The translations under genes were made by a program, and so were the position numbers. Of a stretch of 64,000 nt of DNA, positions 4,928 to 53,126 are shown one piece after another. The notes under the pieces were generated by a model. The model was not told the DNA's origin. It was given only the letters and a program-made list of their open reading frames with translations, and made no database searches. The DNA is from Streptomyces sp. YIM 121038 (lineage in GTDB: Bacteria; Actinomycetota; Actinomycetes; Streptomycetales; Streptomycetaceae). The number at the start of each line of letters is the position of its first letter. Within the stretch, counting starts at the first letter, position 1. The stretch is taken from NCBI RefSeq assembly GCF_006088715.1, contig NZ_CP030772.1, positions 620,001 to 684,000 on the forward strand. The letters run 5' to 3'.

Positions 4928-6154
4928 ATGCACTGGACCGAACCCGTTGACGTCCTGCACTTGATGCGGCAGCACGAGATACGGGAGAACCCCTACCCGC
5001 TGTACAGCTGGCTGCGGGCGAACCATCCCGTCTACCTCAACCCCACCGGCAACATTGCCCTGATCAGCGCCTGGCGCCATGCCCGCATCATGAAAGACCC
5101 CGCTCTACGCGGCATGAGCCAGGACCGGCTGGCCGGCGCCAACCCCCGCTACGCCACCTCCCATACCCTGCGCATCATGATGAACTCCGTCGTCAATAAG
5201 AACCGCCCCGAACACACACGACTGCGCAAGGTCCTCTCCCCGCTGTACGCCCCGGCCACCGTGGAGCGACTCCGCGTACAGGTCACCGAGAACCTCAACC
5301 GGCGCATCCTCGGGATCAAGCAGCGGCTGCTCGACGGCCAAACCGTCGACCTGCACACCGAGTTGACGTCTCCGTTCGTCGCCGACGCCGTCGGCGCCCA
5401 CGTCGGCATCCCCGAACCCGACCGCGTTCCGCTGCAGCACTACGTCCACAGCGCCTTCGCGGCCTTCCACCCCGCTGCCACCGACGCCGTCCACTGCCAG
5501 GCAGACCAGGCCACCTCCCACCTGTACGCCTACTACGCCGACCTCATGGACAGGGAAGATCCCCCTCCCGGGACCGCCCTGGACATGCTGGGCAGACCAG
5601 ACGCTCCGGCCCGCTGCCACATCACCGAAGAAGAACGGCAGAACCTGCTGTGGGTGGTGTGGATGGGGGCTCACGAATCCTCCATCGCTGCCCTCGATCA
5701 CGCACTCATCACCTACGTCGCCCACCCCCAGCACGCCCCCCTGGTCTCCATGCCGGACACCCTCACGAACTACATTCACGAATGCCTCCGCTACGAAGCG
5801 CCACTCATGATCAATGCCTCGCGCATCGCCGCCGTGAAAGACCTTGACATCGCCGGAGTGCACGTCCCCGAAGGATGCGGCGTCCACTTCCTGCCCGGCG
5901 CCATCAACCGCGACCCGCAGCAGTACGACAACCCGGACACCTTCATCCCTCAACGCACCAACGCCGAGACCCACATCAGCTTCTCCCTCGGAATCCACCG
6001 CTGCGCCGGAGCATCACTGGCCACGCTGGAAATGACGATCCTGCTTCCGGCCTTCCACCGCCATCTCGGTGCTCTCGCCCCGGCCCTCACCCCCGATTAC
6101 GCCCTGGGCACTACCCAACGCACTCTGAAACACCTCTGGGCACAACTTGCGTAA
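4928..6154 (+). CDS. Cytochrome P450 monooxygenase
   Basis: A 408-residue soluble bacterial P450. The ATG is preceded by GAGGAGG at a good distance. Landmarks are the N-terminal region RENPYPLYSWLRANHP, an I-helix in which the usual AGxET is replaced by GAHESS, the K-helix ExxR as ECLRYEAP, and the heme loop FSLGIHRCAG with Cys at about 359. The Ser in place of the conserved Thr of the acid-alcohol pair is mildly unusual and could alter proton delivery. It lies 20 bp after a truncated P450 and 57 bp before an aldolase-family gene, so the three probably formed a tailoring operon. The substrate cannot be read from sequence; the isoprenoid operon elsewhere in the window makes a terpenoid plausible, as inference only. 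Confidence 0.92.
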   Translation: MHWTEPVDVLHLMRQHEIRENPYPLYSWLRANHPVYLNPTGNIALISAWRHARIMKDPALRGMSQDRLAGANPRYATSHTLRIMMNSVVNKNRPEHTRLRKVLSPLYAPATVERLRVQVTENLNRRILGIKQRLLDGQTVDLHTELTSPFVADAVGAHVGIPEPDRVPLQHYVHSAFAAFHPAATDAVHCQADQATSHLYAYYADLMDREDPPPGTALDMLGRPDAPARCHITEEERQNLLWVVWMGAHESSIAALDHALITYVAHPQHAPLVSMPDTLTNYIHECLRYEAPLMINASRIAAVKDLDIAGVHVPEGCGVHFLPGAINRDPQQYDNPDTFIPQRTNAETHISFSLGIHRCAGASLATLEMTILLPAFHRHLGALAPALTPDYALGTTQRTLKHLWAQLA

Positions 6155-6211
6155 CCCGCCATCAAGACGACAACGGCCGGCGGCCCGCTCCCGACCCGAA
6201 GGAGAAACCCA

Positions 6212-7000
6212 GTGACGATCAACAAGCCGGGCGAGATGCCACCGGACAGCTTCTTCCTCCACCCCCCGGCCTTCCCCAACCATGGCGAACACCGCACCCA
6301 TCTCAAGCAGCGCCTGGCAGCGGCGTTCCGCCACTTCGGCCGCCTCGGCTTCGATGAGGGCATCGCAGGGCACATCACCGTGCAAGACCCCGAGCACACC
6401 GGGACCTTCTGGGCCAATCCGCTGGGCGTCCCCTTCCTCCACATCACCCCGCACCATCTGGTCCGGGTCGACGGAGACACCGCACGTACCGTGGAAGGCG
6501 GGCACGTCGTCAACATCGGCGCCTTCTACATCCACGCCGAGATCCACGCCGCCCGGCCCGACGTCCAAGCCGTCGTCCACCTGCACTCCACCTACGGGCG
6601 CGCATGGTCCGCACTCGGAGAACCACTCGCCCCCATCACCCAGGACCACTGCCCGTTCTTCGAAGACCACACCGTCTTCAACGACTACAACGGCATCGTC
6701 CTAGACCGAACCGAAGGCAAACGCATCGCCACCGCCCTGGGACCGAGGAAAGCCCTCATCCTGCGCAACCACGGCCTACTCACCGCAGCCGAAACCCTCG
6801 ACGCCGCCGCGTGGTGGTTCACCCTCATGGACAAAGCCTGCGAGATCAGCCTCCTCGCCCACGCCGCGGGCCGCCCCGTCCTCATCCCGGACGAAGCGGC
6901 CCGCGCCACCCGCGACCAGATCGGCACCCACCTCATCGGCTACAACAGCGCCCAGCCACTCCTCACCCTCGCCGACGAAACCCTCCACGACAGCCGATGA
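6212..7000 (+). CDS. Class II aldolase/adducin-family protein
   Basis: A 262-residue protein with a GTG start behind AAGGAG. It has the family core: an N-terminal helix (HFGRLGFDEGIAGHITV), the zinc-site region AVVHLHSTYGRAWSALG with paired His residues, and the conserved NHGLLTAAETLDAAAWWF near residue 190. Members are zinc-dependent sugar-phosphate aldolases or epimerases, or related decarboxylases and dehydratases. This one resembles the unspecific actinobacterial group found beside oxidative genes. It follows the P450 in the same direction and likely shares its transcript. After it comes only decayed IS5 sequence, so the operon may have been longer. The family is secure; the reaction is unknown. 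Confidence 0.88.
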   Translation: MTINKPGEMPPDSFFLHPPAFPNHGEHRTHLKQRLAAAFRHFGRLGFDEGIAGHITVQDPEHTGTFWANPLGVPFLHITPHHLVRVDGDTARTVEGGHVVNIGAFYIHAEIHAARPDVQAVVHLHSTYGRAWSALGEPLAPITQDHCPFFEDHTVFNDYNGIVLDRTEGKRIATALGPRKALILRNHGLLTAAETLDAAAWWFTLMDKACEISLLAHAAGRPVLIPDEAARATRDQIGTHLIGYNSAQPLLTLADETLHDSR

Positions 7001-7601: not shown

Positions 7602-8552
7602 TCAGCGCAGCCAGCCGCGGCGGCGGATGTACCAGAGCGGGATGAGCGCGGCGACGAAGGTCAGCAGGGTAGTGATCAGGAAGCCGTGTTCCCAGTTGAG
7701 TTCGGGCATGTTGGTGAAGTTCATGCCGTAGAACGTGGCGATCAGGGTGGGCGGCAGGAAGACCGCCGTGATGATTGTGAAAACCTTGACGATCTGGTTC
7801 TGCTTCACATCCAGCGAGGTCATGATGGACTGCTGGAGGTAACGGACCTTGTCGTGCTCGTAGCTGGCATGGTCCTTGACACTGTTGATGTCCGCGACCA
7901 GGACGTCGATCTGTGCGGCGAGGGCGTCGTCGGCGGCGCTGGTCTCGGTGCGCAGGTGGCGGGCGGCGCGGGCCAGCATCAGCTGGGACTCTTGGCAGCG
8001 AGAGACGATCTCCTCGGCCAGGTTCATGCGTTTGATGGTGTCCTGCATGTCGCTGACGCCGATGTCGGTGCCGTGCTCGTCGTAGCCGTCGGTGGCGAGC
8101 TGGATCTCCTCGCTCATATCCTCCAGGACGTCGCTGGCGTGGTCGATGACGTGCTCCTGCGCCTCGTTGAGGGCATACAGCAGCGCGTACATCACGCCCT
8201 GTGCACTCTCAGCCAGGTGCGGAAGCCGCCGCAGGCGAGCCAGAGCCTTGCCGAACGCGGCAAACGGGGTGGCGGGCTGGAGCGTGACCAGGACGTCCCC
8301 GCCCAGCGCGAAGACGATCCGCTCGCGCCGGACGGTCTCCCCGTTGCGGATGTTGACCACGACGGGCAGGTAGATGAAGGTGTCGGACTCCCACACCCGG
8401 CTTCCGGCAGTGTCGAACTCGACCCCGGTGACGTCCTGGGCCTTGGTCATAGCGTCGAGGTCACCGGCGGCGACCTGGAGCCAGCGCATACGCAGGCTCG
8501 CGACGGCGCAGCCATGGTCCGCGACGGTGGCCGTGAGCTTCTCATCGGTCAT
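7602..8552 (-). CDS. corA: CorA-family divalent cation transporter
   Basis: A 316-residue CorA-type channel for Mg2+ (or Co2+/Ni2+) uptake in the cytoplasmic membrane. The signature YGMN loop is present (ATFYGMNFTNMPELNW) after the first membrane helix (IVKVFTIITAVFLPPTLI). A second helix (FLITTLLTFVAALIPLWYI) and a short basic tail follow. The long N-terminal cytoplasmic domain includes the stalk helix. TGAGGAGGG sits just before the ATG. A small membrane-protein gene lies 44 bp upstream in the same direction. Whether it imports or exports cannot be decided from sequence. Confidence 0.93.
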   Translation of the reverse strand: MTDEKLTATVADHGCAVASLRMRWLQVAAGDLDAMTKAQDVTGVEFDTAGSRVWESDTFIYLPVVVNIRNGETVRRERIVFALGGDVLVTLQPATPFAAFGKALARLRRLPHLAESAQGVMYALLYALNEAQEHVIDHASDVLEDMSEEIQLATDGYDEHGTDIGVSDMQDTIKRMNLAEEIVSRCQESQLMLARAARHLRTETSAADDALAAQIDVLVADINSVKDHASYEHDKVRYLQQSIMTSLDVKQNQIVKVFTIITAVFLPPTLIATFYGMNFTNMPELNWEHGFLITTLLTFVAALIPLWYIRRRGWLR

Positions 8553-8596
8553 GATGTCCCTCCTCAGGGTTGTTGTGTGCGAGTCACATGGGCGGC

Positions 8597-8785
8597 CTAC
8601 GGGTTGTAGGGGGAGGTAGACGACGAGCCGCTGTCCTTCTCGGTCGGCGGCTCCGGTGCGCCATAGTGGATAATCAACAGGGCGGCGCAGATGAACAGGT
8701 ACAGAGCGACGGTGAAGGCGATCGCCTGGCGTTCCAGGTTGGGCCGCTTCTTCGGCGGCGTCGCGATCTTGTTGAGCATGACCAT
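8597..8785 (-). CDS. Small single-span membrane protein upstream of corA
   Basis: A 62-residue protein starting at 8785, chosen because AAAGGAGGTGA ends a few bases before ATGGTCATG; the longer in-frame ORF to 8938 lacks such a site. It has a basic N-terminus (KIATPPKKRPNLERQ), one strongly hydrophobic helix (AIAFTVALYLFICAALLII) and a Ser/Pro-rich acidic tail. It precedes corA by 44 bp and is probably co-transcribed. No family is recognised. A role as an accessory or regulatory peptide of the transporter is only a guess from position, size and the very strong ribosome-binding site. Confidence 0.7.
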   Translation of the reverse strand: MVMLNKIATPPKKRPNLERQAIAFTVALYLFICAALLIIHYGAPEPPTEKDSGSSSTSPYNP

Positions 8786-9326
8786 CGAGGTCACCTCCTT
8801 TGGGTGAGGTAATAGCAGGGCAGATGCCCCGAGCTGCAACGCGGGCAAGCCGTGCGCAGGGCAGGGAACGGTGCCGCCGGCAAGCAGGCGCCGCCCAGGA
8901 GAAACGGGTGCTTCACCCAGCATTGAGGCGCGGGCCACGCGGCAGCACGTGCACGGGCATAGATCCGCAAGGCCGCCGGGGCAGCATCAGGAAATCCGGT
9001 TAGGCGCGGGCTTCCGGATGCGGAGCCAGGCTATGCCCCGGACTGCAACTATCCATGTCTGTCCCTCTCAGCCGGGCGCGGGTTGGTCCCCACGCGGAAT
9101 TCTGCGGACCAGCCCTCTCAGGACACGCCATACAGGCAGCGCACACCGGGCCGGGCACTCGACCATACTTGCACATCTACGCAACAAGCAGCAAAGGCTC
9201 CCGGCCGACACGACGCAAAGACTTTCAATCTGCCGCGTGACAGGAGGTGGCCGCCCCGTCGGCAGTCAGCGCGTGCGACCAAGACGTTTGCGTACCGGTT
9301 CCCGTATGCAATTCAAGTACGTCACT
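8786..9326. other. Intergenic leader upstream of the corA operon
   Basis: About 540 bp without a convincing gene. Part of it is presumably the 5' untranslated region of the small membrane protein/corA operon on the minus strand. I looked for an M-box like the one at the right end of the window and did not find its conserved segments. No tRNA is seen. The right limit is the terminal repeat of the IS1182 element. Confidence 0.5.
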
Positions 9327-46125: not shown

Positions 46126-46976
46126 AGAGATCATCTCATTTGGCCAGTCGGCGATAGCGGATGAGGGTGCAGGCGATGCTGGCGAAGGCAGGGAAATGGA
46201 TGGCTTTGCGTTCGTAGCGGCGGTGGAGTCGGCGGCATCCTGCGGGCCAGGACATGGTGCGCTCAATGGTCCAGCGGTGGCGTCCGAGTCGTTCTGAGGA
46301 CTCGATGCCTTTGCGGGCGATGCGGGGTGTGATGTGCCGGGACCGGAGCCATTGCCGCAGGCGGCGGTTGTCGCAGGCCTTGTCCGCATGCAGTTTGGCG
46401 GGGCGGCGCCGGCGGGGTCCGCGGCGGGACCGGATGGGCGGGATGCCTCGGACGAGCGGTTCGAGTGCCTGGCTGTCATGGAGGTTCGCGCCCGAGATAC
46501 CGGCCGGAAGGGGCAGGCCGGTCCGCTCGGTGATCAAGTGGATCTTCGAGCCGTACTTGCCCCGGTCCAACGGATTCGGACCCCTCAGGTCCCCTTTTCC
46601 AGGGCGCGCATGTTCACCGAGTCGATCGCGCACCGCGACCAGTCCAGCTCGCCACGGGCGCCGAGGCCATCCAGCACCAGCCGGTGCAGCTTCGCCCACA
46701 CCCGCAGCCGGCCCCGCTCCATGAACCGGCGGTGCGCCGTTACCCCGGACGGCCCGAACACCGCCGGGACCTGCGACCACGCGCATCCCGCCGTCGCCAC
46801 GAAGAGGATCGCCGCCAGCACCTCACGGCCCCCGTACCGACGCCGCCCACCGCCCTGCGGACGCGACGGCGCCTCCGGCACCACCCGCTGAAACAACTCC
46901 CACAACCCGTCCGGCACCAACCACTCAACCATCAACACCCAGACAGACTACCGGCACCCCAAATGAGATGATCTCT
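46126..46976 (-). mobile_element. IS5-family element with 18-bp repeats and TAA duplication
   Basis: AGAGATCATCTCATTTGG at 46126 and its exact complement at 46959-46976, with TAA on both sides consistent with a 3-bp target duplication. It interrupts a Tn3-family transposase gene at its right side. Confidence 0.9.
46136..46938 (-). CDS. IS5-family transposase in two overlapping frames
   Basis: Frame one (46938 to 46585): LVPDGLWELFQRVVPEAPSR, AILFVATAGCAWSQVPAVFG, CAIDSVNMRALEKGT. Frame two: GPNPLDRGKYGSKIHLITER, SGANLHDSQALEPLVRGI, GRHRWTIERTMSWPAGCRRL, RYERKAIHFPAFASIACTLI. They join near GAAAAGGGGACC by a -1 shift, as in many IS5 elements. Both halves are well preserved. Confidence 0.85.
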
Positions 46977-47954: not shown

Positions 47955-48135
47955 GTTGGCGGAAGGGGCTGTGGAGTGGGGCGGGATCTGGGTCTGGACG
48001 GGGTGGTGGACCACTTCACCCTGTCCGGCGACGAGGCGGGATGGTTACGGAACAAGACCGGGGCCACGAGGTTGGGCTTCGCCGTTCAGCTGAAGTTCCT
48101 CCTCTGGCGCGGCCGGTTCCCCAAGATGCGCCTAG
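47955..48135 (+). pseudogene. Second Tn3-family transposase N-terminal fragment
   Basis: Plus strand: VDHFTLSGDEAGWLRNKTGA, TRLGFAVQLKFLLWRGRFPK. This is the DUF4158 start of a Tn3 transposase, cut at MRL by the first of three IS701 elements at the CTAG at 48132. Confidence 0.82.
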
Positions 48136-49709
48136 TACTCCAGCAGCGGTTCGCTATCTGGCCTGGTCGAAGGCGTCGTCGGGAGTGTAGTGGTTTGGTC
48201 GTGGGTCGGGGGTGGTCTGGCCGGACCGCCCCTCCAACGTGTGGAGTCGTCGCTGGTAGTGGCAGCGGCGGGAGACGGCCTGGTGTCTGCGGCGCCAGCG
48301 AGACCAGTTCAGAGCGTGCGTGCGAAGCGGCCGCCCGGTTTGGCGGTTCGGGCCGAGGCGAAGTGCCAGGAGCCGGCGGACTTCTGCCACGGTGAGCGGA
48401 GCCAGGGTGCCGGAAGCGTTTCTGCACCCCCCTTTCCCGCCGCGTCGGCTGCCATGACCGCGAGGTAGGCGTGAGCGAGCATGGCCAGGGTGATGTGCCG
48501 GAACCAGCCGACGTAGCGGCGGACCTCGTACTGGTCCAGGCCGCACTCGTTCTTTGCCGCCTGGAAGCACTCCTCGATCTGCCAGCGCATCCCGGCGATC
48601 CTCACCAGGTCGGCCACTGTGGTCTCCCGCGGTGCGTAGGCGAGGAAGTAGGCGATCTCCTGGGACTTGCTGATGCTGCGGCGGGCCAGTGCCCAGCGTC
48701 GGCGTACGGGGGCCTCGCCCTGGCAGTCGAACTCGGCCACCGTGGGCAGCTCCAGTGCCGCCCAGTGGTAGCGCCTTGGTCCTTTGGCGCCGTCACCGCA
48801 CGAGATCGTCTCCCACGCCTCGCCGGGGGCCTGGGCAAACAGGTAGTCGATGCGCGGGCCGAAGACCTGCTGGGACTTGGGCACTGCGAGCACGTAGCCG
48901 AGGCCGGACTGCTCGATCAGGCGACGAAAGCGTCCCTCCTGCCCGTAGGCGGAGTCCGCAGCCACCCACGCAAGAGGGAGATCCGAGGCCAGAGCACGCA
49001 GCACCAGGCGCTTGGCCAGCTCGCCCTTCGTGGCGAAGCCTCGTTCGTCGGGGACCTTCGCCGCCCGGCAGCGTTCCCGGTCCTCCGTCCAGGACTTGGG
49101 CAGGTAGAGCTCCTGGTCCACCAGGGCGCGGCCGCGGGTGGTGGCGTAGGCGGCGAAGACGCCGATCTGGCAGTTCTCGGTGCGGCCGGCGGTGCCGGAG
49201 TACTGACGCTGCACCCCGGCGGAGGTGGTGCCCTTCTTGACGAAGCCGGTGTCATCGATGACGAGCACCCCGCCGTCTACGCCGAGGTGCTCGGCGACGT
49301 ATGCCTGAAGGTCGTCGCGGACGTCGTCGGCATCCCAGTTCGCCGCGTTCAGCAGCCGCTGGAAGCCATCAGGGGTGTGGTGCCCGGCGAACTCGGCCAG
49401 CTGCCAGCCGTTTTTACGGCTGACGGGAGCGAGAAGCCCCCGCACATAGTCCCGCATCCGACGCCGCAGGTCCGCGCGGCCGAAGCGGTGGCCAATGCGC
49501 AAGAAGAGAGTGTCGAGTTCCCGCTCCCAGGTCACGTCCGCATGCTCGTCGATCACCTTGGAAGGCTGTCGGCACCGGAGTCGGCCAGCCAAATCCTGAC
49601 CCACACGTGGGAGGGGCGGTCCGGCCAGACCACCCCCGACCCACGACCAAACCACTACACTCCCGACGACGCCTTCGACCAGGCCAGATAGCGAACCGCT
49701 GCTGGAGTA
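48136..49709 (-). mobile_element. IS701-family element A, 100-bp perfect terminal inverted repeats
   Basis: The first and last 100 bases are exact complements (outer end TACTCCAGCAGCGGTTCGCT). CTAG flanks both sides (48132-48135 and 49710-49713). The right-hand CTAG is shared with the next element. Confidence 0.93.
48309..49556 (-). CDS. IS701-family transposase (element A)
   Basis: About 415 residues from GTG 49556 (IDEHADVTWERELDTLFLRI). The longer ORF starts inside the terminal repeat. DDE core: GVLVIDDTGFVKKGTTSAGV, LAWVAADSAYGQEGRFRRLI, IAGMRWQIEECFQAAKNECG. The frame ends in a poor tail (GGRFARTL). The family's usual tail (LAPLTVAEVRRLLALRLG, WSRWRRRHQAVSRRCHYQR) lies in the -1 frame after the slippery run AAGGGGGGT. 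Confidence 0.9.
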   Translation of the reverse strand: MIDEHADVTWERELDTLFLRIGHRFGRADLRRRMRDYVRGLLAPVSRKNGWQLAEFAGHHTPDGFQRLLNAANWDADDVRDDLQAYVAEHLGVDGGVLVIDDTGFVKKGTTSAGVQRQYSGTAGRTENCQIGVFAAYATTRGRALVDQELYLPKSWTEDRERCRAAKVPDERGFATKGELAKRLVLRALASDLPLAWVAADSAYGQEGRFRRLIEQSGLGYVLAVPKSQQVFGPRIDYLFAQAPGEAWETISCGDGAKGPRRYHWAALELPTVAEFDCQGEAPVRRRWALARRSISKSQEIAYFLAYAPRETTVADLVRIAGMRWQIEECFQAAKNECGLDQYEVRRYVGWFRHITLAMLAHAYLAVMAADAAGKGGAETLPAPWLRSPWQKSAGSWHFASARTAKPGGRFARTL

Positions 49710-49713
49710 CTAG

Positions 49714-51244
49714 TACTCCAGTTGCAGTTCGCTATTCCTGCTGTTCAGGAGCCTGTTTCCGAGTGTAGCGAGCTGACGTTCCGTCATGTTGCTGGAGTTC
49801 GTGACTGGCAGCGCGTGATTGCTGTTGTGCTGATCATGCAAGACGATGTGCGGCCTGATGTCTGGGCGAGGGAGCTGGAGGAGATGCTGCTGCGGGTCGG
49901 TCACCGGTTCGGCCGGGCCGACCTGCGGCGGCGGATGCGCGCGTATGTGCACGGGCTGCTGGGGTCGGTGGGCCGGAAGAACAGCTGGCAACTCGCAGAA
50001 CATGCAGGTCACAACACACCACATGGGCTCCAGAACCTCCTGAACCGGGCCCGGTGGGACGCGGATGAGATCCGCGACGACGTGCAGGCATACGTCGCCG
50101 AACGGCTCGGCGAGGACGGCGGCGTACTCGTGAGCGACGAGACGGGCTTCCTCAAGAAGGGCGACACCTCAGCCGGGGTGCAACGGCAGTACTCGGGCAC
50201 GGCAGGACGTACCGAGAACTGCCAAGTCGCCGTGTTCGCCGCCTATACCTCGTCCCGGGGACGCACCCTGGTGGACCGGGAGCTCTACCTGCCCAAGTCC
50301 TGGACATCCGACCGCGAACGGTGCCGGGCGGCAAAGGTGCCCGACGACCGCGGCTTCGCCACCAAGACCGAGCTGGCCCGAACCCTGGTCACCAGGGCGC
50401 TGTCCTCACCACTGCCCGTCTCATGGGTGACCGCGGACGCGCTCTACGGCCAGGACTGGCACTTCCGCCGCATGATCGAGGAGGCTGGCCTCGGTTACGT
50501 CGTCGCCGTGCCGAAATCGCAGCAGGTCAAATCGCTTGCGGGATGCTGGCGCATCGACCAGCTCGTCGTCGACGCACCCGATGACGCCTGGGAACGGCTC
50601 TCGTGCGGAGACGGCGTCAAGGGCCCGCGTGTCTACGACTGGGCGGCCGCGCAGCTGCCGGCCGTCCCGTTCTTCGACGGCGGTGAGCCCTCCCACCGCG
50701 GGTGGGTGATGGCCCGCCGCAGCATCGCCCGGCCCGACGAGATCGCCTACTACCTCGCCCACGCACCCACCGGCACCACCGCGGACCAGCTGGTCACCGT
50801 GGCCGGCAGCCGCTGGTCCATCGAATCCTGCTTCCAGAACGCGAAGAACGAGTGCGGCCTGGATGAGTACGAAGTCCGCCGCTACGTGGGCTGGTACCGG
50901 CACATCACCCTCGCCATGCTCGCACACGCCTTCCTCGCCGTCATGACGGCCCAGGCCAGAACCGAAAGGGGGGCCGCAGAAACGGATCACCCCTCGCCCC
51001 GCTCAGCCTGGCAGAAATCCGCAGGATCATGGCAACTTGCGGCACCGGCCACCACCGCCCTCGCCACACCGGTCACGCACTGAGATGGTCCCACTGGCGC
51101 AGCCAACACCAGGCCACCGCCATGCGCTGCCACTATCACCGACGCACCCGGTATCACGAACTCCAGCAACATGACGGAACGTCAGCTCGCTACACTCGGA
51201 AACAGGCTCCTGAACAGCAGGAATAGCGAACTGCAACTGGAGTA
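49714..51244 (+). mobile_element. IS701-family element B, about 91-bp perfect terminal inverted repeats
   Basis: The outer ends TACTCCAGTTGCAGTTCGCT are exact complements for about 91 bases. It is bounded by CTAG at 49710-49713 and 51245-51248, both shared with neighbours. The transposase is on the opposite strand from element A. Confidence 0.93.
49836..51083 (+). CDS. IS701-family transposase (element B)
   Basis: 415 residues from ATG 49836 (QDDVRPDVWARELEEMLLRV). DDE core: GVLVSDETGFLKKGDTSAGV (Asp in SDETG rather than IDDTG), VSWVTADALYGQDWHFRRMI, VAGSRWSIESCFQNAKNECG. Closely similar to the element A protein. The tail [40 protein letters not shown] is in the -1 frame after AAAGGGGGG, exactly as in A. 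Confidence 0.9.
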   Translation: MQDDVRPDVWARELEEMLLRVGHRFGRADLRRRMRAYVHGLLGSVGRKNSWQLAEHAGHNTPHGLQNLLNRARWDADEIRDDVQAYVAERLGEDGGVLVSDETGFLKKGDTSAGVQRQYSGTAGRTENCQVAVFAAYTSSRGRTLVDRELYLPKSWTSDRERCRAAKVPDDRGFATKTELARTLVTRALSSPLPVSWVTADALYGQDWHFRRMIEEAGLGYVVAVPKSQQVKSLAGCWRIDQLVVDAPDDAWERLSCGDGVKGPRVYDWAAAQLPAVPFFDGGEPSHRGWVMARRSIARPDEIAYYLAHAPTGTTADQLVTVAGSRWSIESCFQNAKNECGLDEYEVRRYVGWYRHITLAMLAHAFLAVMTAQARTERGAAETDHPSPRSAWQKSAGSWQLAAPATTALATPVTH

Positions 51245-51248
51245 CTAG

Positions 51249-52648
51249 TACTGCAACGGTGCTTGCTGTGATTGGTGGCCAGTTCGGTCGTTGGCGTGGT
51301 TATGGGTGGAGACCTTGCTGATGTCAGGTTGTGGGCGGGTGAGCTCGAGGTGGTGCATGAGCGGTTCGTGCATCGGTTCAGCCGGGAGGAGCCGTGTCAG
51401 TCGGCGCTGGCGTATATGCGGGGGCTGGTTGCTCCGCTGGAGCGTAAGAACGGCTGGACACTGGCGGAGGAGGCCGGGCATAGCGGTCCCGATCGCATCC
51501 ACCGGCTGCTGAACTGCATCGAGTGGGATGCCGACGAGGTCCGTGACTACGTCCGTGACTACGTCGTCGAGCACCTCGGAGACGAAGGCGCCATTCTGAT
51601 CGTTGATGACACCGGCTTCCTCAAGAAGGGCATCCGCTCGGCCGGGGTCCAGCGGCAGTACTCCGGCACCGCGGGACGCACCGAGAACTCCCAGATCGGC
51701 GTGTTTCTCGCCTACGCCACCGGCCAAGGACGCACGCTCATCGACCGGCGGTTGTATCTGCCCACCTCCTGGACGGACGACCGCGAACGCTGCCGCCGGG
51801 CCGGCATCGACGACGACGTCGCCTTTGAGACGAAGGTGGCCATGGCCAAGGCAATGGTCCGCCGCGCGATTGCGGACCGGGTTCCGTTTCGGTGGGTGAC
51901 CGCGGATGCCGCCTACGGCTTTTCCAAGGGCTGGCGTTTTGAGCTGGAGCAGGCCGATGTCTTCCACGTCATGGCCACCACCCGGCACGACACCGTCGTC
52001 ACCCGCTGGGCGATCGACCACCCCGTCCACGAGCTGTTCACCAGGCTCCCCCGCCAGAAGTGAAAGCGCCGGTCCTGCGGCAGCGGGGCTCACGGCCTAC
52101 GGATCTACAACTGGGCACGCGTCGAGGTCAGGCCCTGGCACCGGCCCGACCGCCGCCACTGGGTCCTCGCGCGCCGCAGCGTCAGCCGGCCTGGAGAGGT
52201 CTCCTACTACATCGCCTACTGCCCCGCCCGGACCACCCTCGACGACCTGATCCGCATCGCGGGCAGCAGATGGGCGATCGAGGAATGCTTCCAGAGCGCG
52301 AAGCAGGAGTGCGGCTGGACGACTACCAGGTCCGCCGCTACCCCGGCTGGCACCGCCACATGACCCTGGCCATGGCCGCCCACGCCACCTTGACCATCCT
52401 GCGGGCCCGCGAACTCGACACGGACAAAGCAGAAACGGATCCTCCGACCTCATCCACCTCAGCCTCGCCGAGATCAGACGCCTGACCTACCGCCTCACCC
52501 AACGCCGGCCCGTATCCGTCGAGTGCATCCTGCACTGGTCCCGCTGGCGCCGGAAAAGGCAGTACCAAGCCCGCCGCAGCCACTACAAACGACGCGGCCA
52601 CACACCACCAGAAACTGCCCACCCGTCACAGCAAGCACCGTTGCAGTA
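51249..52648 (+). mobile_element. IS701-family element C, 23-bp terminal repeats
   Basis: TACTGCAACGGTGCTTGCTG is repeated inverted at both ends (23 perfect bases). The left target is CTAG shared with element B; the right flank is CTAC, one base changed from CTAG. 1400 bp long. Confidence 0.9.
51302..52485 (+). pseudogene. IS701-family transposase (element C), inactivated
   Basis: From ATG 51302 (GGDLADVRLWAGELEVVHER). The core GAILIVDDTGFLKKGIRSAG and [20 protein letters not shown] is present. A TGA at 52061 replaces a Trp codon in KWKRRSCG. The frame continues [20 protein letters not shown] and [20 protein letters not shown], where one missing base shifts it to [20 protein letters not shown]. 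Two lesions make it inactive. Confidence 0.87.
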
Positions 52649-53126
52649 CTACGGCATCGCCACCAAGCTGGGCCTCGATAAGAAGGACTTCCAAGGCCCG
52701 GCTGACAAGGGGCGCGTGCCCGGCGTGCTGCCGCTGGCCCAGGACAAGAAGGTCATGGTGCTCGGCGGCGGTGGAGTGGGCGAGTCCGCGAAGGCCACGG
52801 CCCGCACCGCGATCGTGGACCTGGACGGCCCCCGGCCGGCCTTCAGGCCCGGCCCCCGACTGCCGGAGAAGAGCCGTTACCCGAACAGCGTGATCCTCCC
52901 CGACGGCACGCTGTTCACGACCGGTGGCAGTCGTGGCTACCCGGGCCGGAGCCGGGGCGGAAGCGACATCCTGCGCGCGCAGATCTACCACCCCGCCACC
53001 AAAACCTTCACCCGGGCGGCAGCCCCCGCGGTGGGCCGCAACTATCACACCGAGGCGCTGCTCCTGCCCGACGGGCGGGTCGCCGCCTTCGGCTCCGACC
53101 CCCTCGGCCCCGACTGGACGGCGTGA
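52649..53126 (+). pseudogene. glxA: GlxA-like galactose oxidase fragment
   Basis: About 160 codons: GRVPGVLPLAQDKKVMVLGG, GGVGESAKATARTAIVDL, RYPNSVILPDGTLFTTGGSR, ILRAQIYHPATKTFTRAAAP, VGRNYHTEALLLPDGRVAAF. This is the kelch-repeat middle of GlxA, the secreted mononuclear copper-radical oxidase of Streptomyces, normally beside a cellulose-synthase-like gene. The N-terminal half is replaced by the IS701 array and the C-terminal copper domain is absent after GSDPLGPDW. Confidence 0.85.

Follow-up and report, generated by a model that had tools for sequence, protein, structure and literature searches.

How do three unlike insertion sequences (IS) come to lie edge to edge with only one target tetramer between neighbours? 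The locus in question belongs to a window of 64,000 nucleotides of Streptomyces sp. YIM 121038 (the whole stretch of DNA analysed; plain coordinates refer to it), located on a contig of 967,890 bases (C2) within an 11.1-Mb genome. At 48132-52652 three distinct elements of the IS701 family, here denoted A, B and C, form the string CTAG-A-CTAG-B-CTAG-C-CTAC. We regard as probable an account in which IS701 elements prefer the edges of resident relatives as targets, with later recombination of the outer flanks. The transposases of A, B and C would cleave at YTAR and thereby generate a 4-bp target duplication; each inserted element would then offer a fresh YTAR at either edge, and insertion there would be far more frequent than at YTAR elsewhere. 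Unlike IS701 elements would thereby stack with one tetramer between neighbours; the stacking is seen by comparison, and we infer the reason for the preference.

The array and its target site

An exact sequence check places CTAG at 48132-48135, 49710-49713 (common to A and B) and 51245-51248 (common to B and C), and CTAC at 52649-52652. Element A (48136-49709, minus strand) is bounded by ends of 109 nt of which 108 match (48136-48244 and 49601-49709), element B (49714-51244, plus strand) by perfect ends of 91 nt (49714-49804 and 51154-51244), and element C (51249-52648, plus strand) by 36-nt ends with 3 mismatches. All three exceed the cut-off of 150 bits of the NCBIfam model NF033540 (IS701), with 441, 448 and 288 bits, respectively; A and B also match the Pfam family DDE_Tnp_1. 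The ends TACTCCAG / TACTGCAA contain the YACT of the consensus ---YACT-Y--YR given in the available text of PMC2266710, the three leading positions not being placed. The earlier note had described three IS701 elements in tandem with single CTAG junctions, and its coordinates and tetramers are exact. It is likewise right that the elements are not copies of one another (A and B are only 73% identical across 1,270 nt, and C resembles both patchily, at about 70-79% identity), and that the transposase of C is dead, being broken by a TGA at 52061-52063 and a further frame break near 52315. The ends, which it had called different, differ in detail, but A and B have the outer 8 nt TACTCCAG in common.

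The target was surveyed in 51 elements of fetched relatives in which both ends were found, with only NTAN flanks considered and copies of one element counted separately. Equal 4-bp flanks occur in 44 of these elements, and all 44 are YTAR (33 CTAG, 8 CTAA, 3 TTAG); therefore the target duplication is a 4-bp YTAR and not CTAG alone. The earlier claim of CTAG-specific insertion is thus too narrow. Among all YTAR tetramers, CTAG accounts for 35 of 83 within the window and for 136 of 265 in the fetched loci. The borders of identical copies, found without the NTAN limit, agree with a 4-bp YTAR, and for the copy of A inserted in a Tn3-type gene (see below) counting CTAG once preserves the register of the intact relative. 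The result is in line with the four-bp target duplication given for IS701 in the available text of PMC2266710. The remaining seven elements have unequal tetramers (TTAG/CTAG in 4, and CTAG/CTAA, GTAG/CTAG and CTAA/CTAG in 1 each). Within the array, A and B are each flanked by CTAG/CTAG and C by CTAG/CTAC; we put the unequal pair of C down to a change of flank, not to membership of another family.

A 2-bp duplication of TA, hinted at by a copy of A with GTAG/CTAA (locus L023, 2635-4208) and a copy of C with GTAG/CTAC (locus L025, 3155-4554), was considered and rejected in view of the 44 equal flanks, because fixed G and C ends cannot yield eight CTAA/CTAA and three TTAG/TTAG pairs. The flanks of these two copies have probably changed. 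By eye, the left flank of A in L023 is repeated in inverted orientation beside a fragment of C.

Neither A, B nor C contains an internal YTAR. Further comparisons draw on 59 distinct elements with TACTSCA-type ends from the fetched loci, a non-random sample obtained mostly via the A transposase or the junction pattern. Here the density of YTAR is 0.32 per kb inside versus 0.99 outside the elements; it amounts to 0.17 per kb in the element open reading frames (ORFs; 4 sites in 23 kb) and to 0.37 per kb both in 38 other ORFs and in the remaining element DNA. Self-avoidance of the target is not established, since coding DNA is poor in YTAR anyway. Outside single insertions, G adjoins the tetramer at 59 of 107 ends, while an element edge presents T instead. 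An edge is therefore not simply a good match to the ordinary flank, and the difference would favour recognition of the element end itself.

Stacking across Streptomyces

The pattern end-YTAR-end occurs 23 times in 14 of 150 genomes of the genus, and its backward control does not occur at all. For 14 of these junctions an IS701 transposase is found on both sides, for 7 on one side only, and for 2 none is detected; in this tally the two junctions of a second array in the genome of the window (described below) are grouped with those of the window. Of 392 genomes of the genus, 15 contain a narrower pattern, TGSAGTACTAGTACTSCA, again with a backward control of 0. Matches to a single end with YTAR (TGSAGTAYTAR) total 542 across these 150 genomes, 42 of which have none; a second end adjoins 46 of the 542 (8.5%). 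For this 11-mer the backward control is commoner than the pattern and hence unusable as a background, although chance matches would only dilute the fraction. Under random choice of YTAR, 0.1 junctions would be expected with 9,500 sites per genome (from about 1.1 per kb), 0.23 with 4,000 (nearer the density of coding DNA) and 1.8 with 500. Since 23 junctions are found where about 0.1-0.25 are expected, repeated targeting of element edges is supported by these comparisons, and the excess of element ends among the targets appears strong statistically.

The partners are mostly not identical. Genus searches together with named genomes yield 83 non-redundant junctions, 29 of which lie between two detected IS701 transposases, in all orientations (++ 9, -- 8, +- 7, -+ 5). 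Among these 29 there is one near-identical pair (L076); the others are diverged or unalignable over the kilobase compared. In one genome (G009), each of the four listed copies of one element lies against a different IS701-type end, at CTAG, CTAG, CTAG and TTAG, and a neighbouring transposase is detected at three of the four. On this point, the repeated targeting of edges, the earlier note is borne out.

Of 76 plasmid records with similar elements, 74 are from Streptomyces, and all eight same-genus loci that were set against a named locus picked by eye proved to be identical DNA to Streptomyces records. Outside actinobacteria (cyanobacteria, Thiotrichaceae, Aquificaceae, Lachnospiraceae) the 18-mer junction pattern also has matches, but three transposase queries detected no IS701 transposase there, and these matches are not counted as stacks. 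In records from cyanobacteria, Aquificaceae and Thiotrichaceae (L053, L062, L081, L074, L094, L059, L060), where no IS701 transposase is detected next to it, the 18-mer is often part of a longer palindrome.

Outer flanks, the second array and rival explanations

The two outer flanks of the array belong to two different genes. On the left lies the 5' part of a Tn3-type transposase gene (47967-48131, plus strand; DUF4158, PF13700 with 31.1 bits at a cut-off of 27.4), which matches the Tn3 model NF033527 weakly (24 bits versus 500) and shows 90% identity to tnpA-region sequence from a Streptomyces plasmid. On the right lies a fragment of a glxA-like gene for a radical copper oxidase (52649-53126, plus strand; PF13964, and NF052501 with 195 bits, which against a cut-off of 800 marks it as a fragment). 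The 3' part of the Tn3 gene adjoins another copy of A at C2:506979 (locus L024), 161 kb away. When the left flank of the window is joined to the reverse complement of the left flank of L024, with CTAG counted once, the resulting 647 nt align at 90.9% identity to an intact Tn3-type tnpA on a plasmid of Streptomyces sp. NBC_01727, and the alignment is unbroken at CTAG. The tetramer replaces one 4-nt stretch of the gene, which reads ATGG in the NBC_01727 plasmid and CTGG in two other relatives. Taken as a comparison of sequences, the unbroken alignment thus shows that A was formerly a single insertion in the Tn3 gene whose halves have since been separated. The cause of the parting would be recombination, most simply an exchange between copies of A or between their 109-nt ends.

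At the right boundary an intact glxA-like relative, on a plasmid of Streptomyces sp. NBC_01431, reads AACTTCTACGGCATCGCC, so CTAC is the gene's own sequence. The right flank of C was probably exchanged with that of a C copy once inserted in a glxA-like gene.

The copy of A beside the Tn3 half in L024 (3484-8066) is interrupted by an insertion of about 3 kb. One and the same 1.2-kb element, whose ORF looks IS630-like by eye, directly adjoins an IS701 element at its CTAG edge both in L024 (about 8067-9281) and in locus L026 (about 5250-6464); IS701 edges may serve TA-targeting elements too. To the left of the array in the window, at 46136-46786, there is an ORF which by eye encodes an IS5-like transposase.

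Beyond the window considered in the earlier note, a second array in the order A-B-C lies at C2:381-385.5 kb. Its three elements match A, B and C of the window at 100% identity; B is inverted, and the outer flanks are different ones. The sequence GTACTAGTAC occurs at four places in the 11.1-Mb genome, namely at the four junctions of the two arrays and nowhere else, and a complete B is present only in these arrays. A and C are found also without the other elements. Copies of C comprise three full-length ones and a 1.2-kb partial one at 100% identity, as well as pieces of 210 nt (99%) and 149 nt (91%). The three full-length copies carry the same TGA, so C multiplied after its death, either in trans or by recombination, and its decay therefore does not date its position in the array.

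We propose that identical copies of A and C across the replicon recombine, through the elements or through their long inverted ends, and would thereby swap the outer flanks: on the left the half of the Tn3 gene, where the parting rests on the joined flanks and its mechanism is conjectural, and on the right, wholly by conjecture, the glxA-like fragment. The inverted B of the second array would be due either to a flip, through recombination between its perfect 91-nt ends, or to B having entered an A-C junction twice.

Three other explanations have to be weighed against this account. The earlier note's own model, sequential stacking at one original CTAG with no later rearrangement, fits the single tetramers at both internal junctions and the recurrence of such junctions elsewhere. 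It fails at the outside of the array, where the flanks are different genes, the tetramers are unequal, and the left flank contradicts it, with the absent Tn3 half adjoining another copy of A; we consider the model hardly tenable. Its subsidiary claims fall as well: the last tetramer has not drifted to CTAC, which is native, and C need not be the oldest element, given its three identical full-length copies. Non-collinear flanks, probably owing to recombination, which that note had named as evidence to the contrary, are thus found on the outside, while the targeting of edges remains supported. Movement of the A-B-C block as one composite transposon via the outer ends of A and C would account for the same order appearing twice with different outer flanks. 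The block ends, however, carry no matching duplication, since they read CTAG/CTAC in the window and CTAG/TTTC in the other array; moreover, B is inverted between the arrays, and A and C occur also on their own, which makes such movement very unlikely. Less remote, but still unlikely in our view, is the absence of any preference, with every YTAR being hit and insertions beside an existing IS surviving since they are harmless. The scarcity of YTAR in coding DNA and the many genomes without a stack speak for it. It would, however, require about 40 acceptable sites per genome to produce the 23 junctions (about 65 for the 14 two-sided ones), while single insertions are found at many different sites, for example at eight fetched loci in genome G010 alone, and the listed copies in G009 are all stacked.

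Several observations also weigh against the combination of edge preference and later recombination that we favour. No junction is found in 136 of the 150 genomes, and these include eight (G010, G007, G083, G054, G025, G091, G096, G036) with several copies of one element each, so the habit of stacking differs between elements or hosts. For 54 of the 83 junctions an IS701 transposase is not detected on one or both sides, so the 18-mer alone is no proof; some of these are contig ends or have diverged partners. The junctions are not all independent (the two arrays described here, neighbouring junctions in G128), and the seven unequal pairs among the 51 surveyed elements indicate that flanks change often. 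A search of the own genome places the other half of the glxA-like gene beside no copy of C, the sole matches being two chromosomal homologues on another contig. Finally, the edge preference may in part be survival bias, landing beside an IS being harmless.

Transposase frame arrangement and known systems

The transposase genes of these elements present a further regularity. The main frame of A (ORF 48309-49655, minus strand) is followed by a C-terminal part in the -1 frame (48154-48435), with the slippery sequence A_AAG_GGG in the sense of A at 48429-48435; that of B (ORF 49722-51083, plus strand) is followed by a -1 part to about 51223, after AAAGGGGGG at 50965-50973. Further examples of the frame change are seen in L069, L073, L078, L098, L068, L071 and L080. 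A C-terminal motif L-T/S-x-x-E-I/V-R-R-L is found in 55 of the 59 distinct elements; with respect to the main ORF, 45 of these have it in the -1 frame, 5 in frame and 5 in +1. The 45 elements come from loci that include Streptomyces, Kitasatospora, Nocardia and Pseudonocardia, and among them is L190, a broken element of the 2-kb type. Four of the five in-frame elements are of the longer 2-kb type, and the fifth (L039) has a run of N and is elsewhere placed in -1; the +1 elements include the broken C. At the frame change, slippery sites are C_CCA_AAA in 7, A_AAG_GGG in 11, A_AAA_GGG in 7, A_AGG_GGG in 5 and N_AAG_GGG in 1, whereas 11 elements have the context AAA_GCA_GAA_ACG without a canonical slippery heptamer and nothing is recognised in 3. 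Downstream, variation is highest at the third positions of the -1 frame, with values for the three codon positions of 0.28, 0.27 and 0.42 by DNA alignment (60 of 337 pairs) and of 0.32, 0.28 and 0.47 by protein alignment (120 of 337 pairs). No RNA stem-loop was apparent close to the frame change in 45 elements (mean z of -0.01, versus -0.10 in a control stretch).

A programmed -1 frameshift is the simplest reading of these patterns and a candidate for the expression of the C-terminal part; C-type elements would need another signal. Relatives with the domain in frame weaken the claim of a universal frameshift: when 2763 candidate proteins were compared with the C-terminal region, 2296 matched it at E values of up to 0.001, and among the 120 matches listed many span 96-100% of its length. 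If the frameshift is programmed, many IS701 transposases are annotated without their true C-terminus. It is conceivable, though on balance doubtful, that actinobacterial IS701 transposases dock across elements, taking even IS701 ends diverged by 50-75% as preferred targets and so building mixed arrays, with the conserved -1 frameshift adding a C-terminal domain and tuning the amount of a docking-competent form. If resident edges attract relatives, the elements would limit their own damage; if true, the same attraction would give rise to groups of nearly identical sequences from which further rearrangements follow, and this replicon shows signs of both steps.

A preference of an IS for the ends of another mobile element has a precedent in IS231A, which belongs to a related family and inserts into the ends of Tn4430; it differs in its family, its longer target and the class of its partner. 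For IS30, the available text of PMC9333248 describes the element's own inverted repeats as preferred targets, giving abutted elements. There, however, a 2-base bridge and circular or dimer intermediates are involved, whereas here unlike elements have one 4-bp duplication in common, and genome sequence does not reveal intermediates. Recombination between identical IS copies with loss of the matching flanks is described in the accessible part of PMC11708052; in the present case, in contrast, the two halves of a single original site are preserved, each next to a different copy of A. As to the family itself, the elements agree with IS701 (IS4 superfamily; PMC2266710, as far as available) in the NF033540 transposase, a length of 1.4-1.6 kb, ends that contain YACT and the 4-bp duplication. 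That text, in the part available, describes neither the stacking of unlike members at common tetramers nor a frame change of the transposase; for the IS4 family, out of which IS701 was split, it names 'absence of frameshift' as a hallmark. Transposase genes of the DDE_Tnp_1 type with a -1 or +1 frame change do appear among the frameshift clusters in the available text of PMC3711429, whose main text does not name IS701 and whose clusters could include the family. The term IS701 likewise has 0 occurrences in the main text of PMC4066793 and of PMC5009743 (first 300,000 characters). In searches of the open-access literature, no paper on stacking or recoding of IS701 was found, as judged from titles and the opening of abstracts and, for PMC8024623, PMC2266710 and PMC8944449, from the available parts; this is a weak negative, since other papers may mention the subject in their text. 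Neither the quantified stacking nor the -1 frame arrangement was met with in print in these searches. The finding as a whole is built of known parts, namely target-specific insertion, an end preference like that of IS30, and recombination between IS copies.

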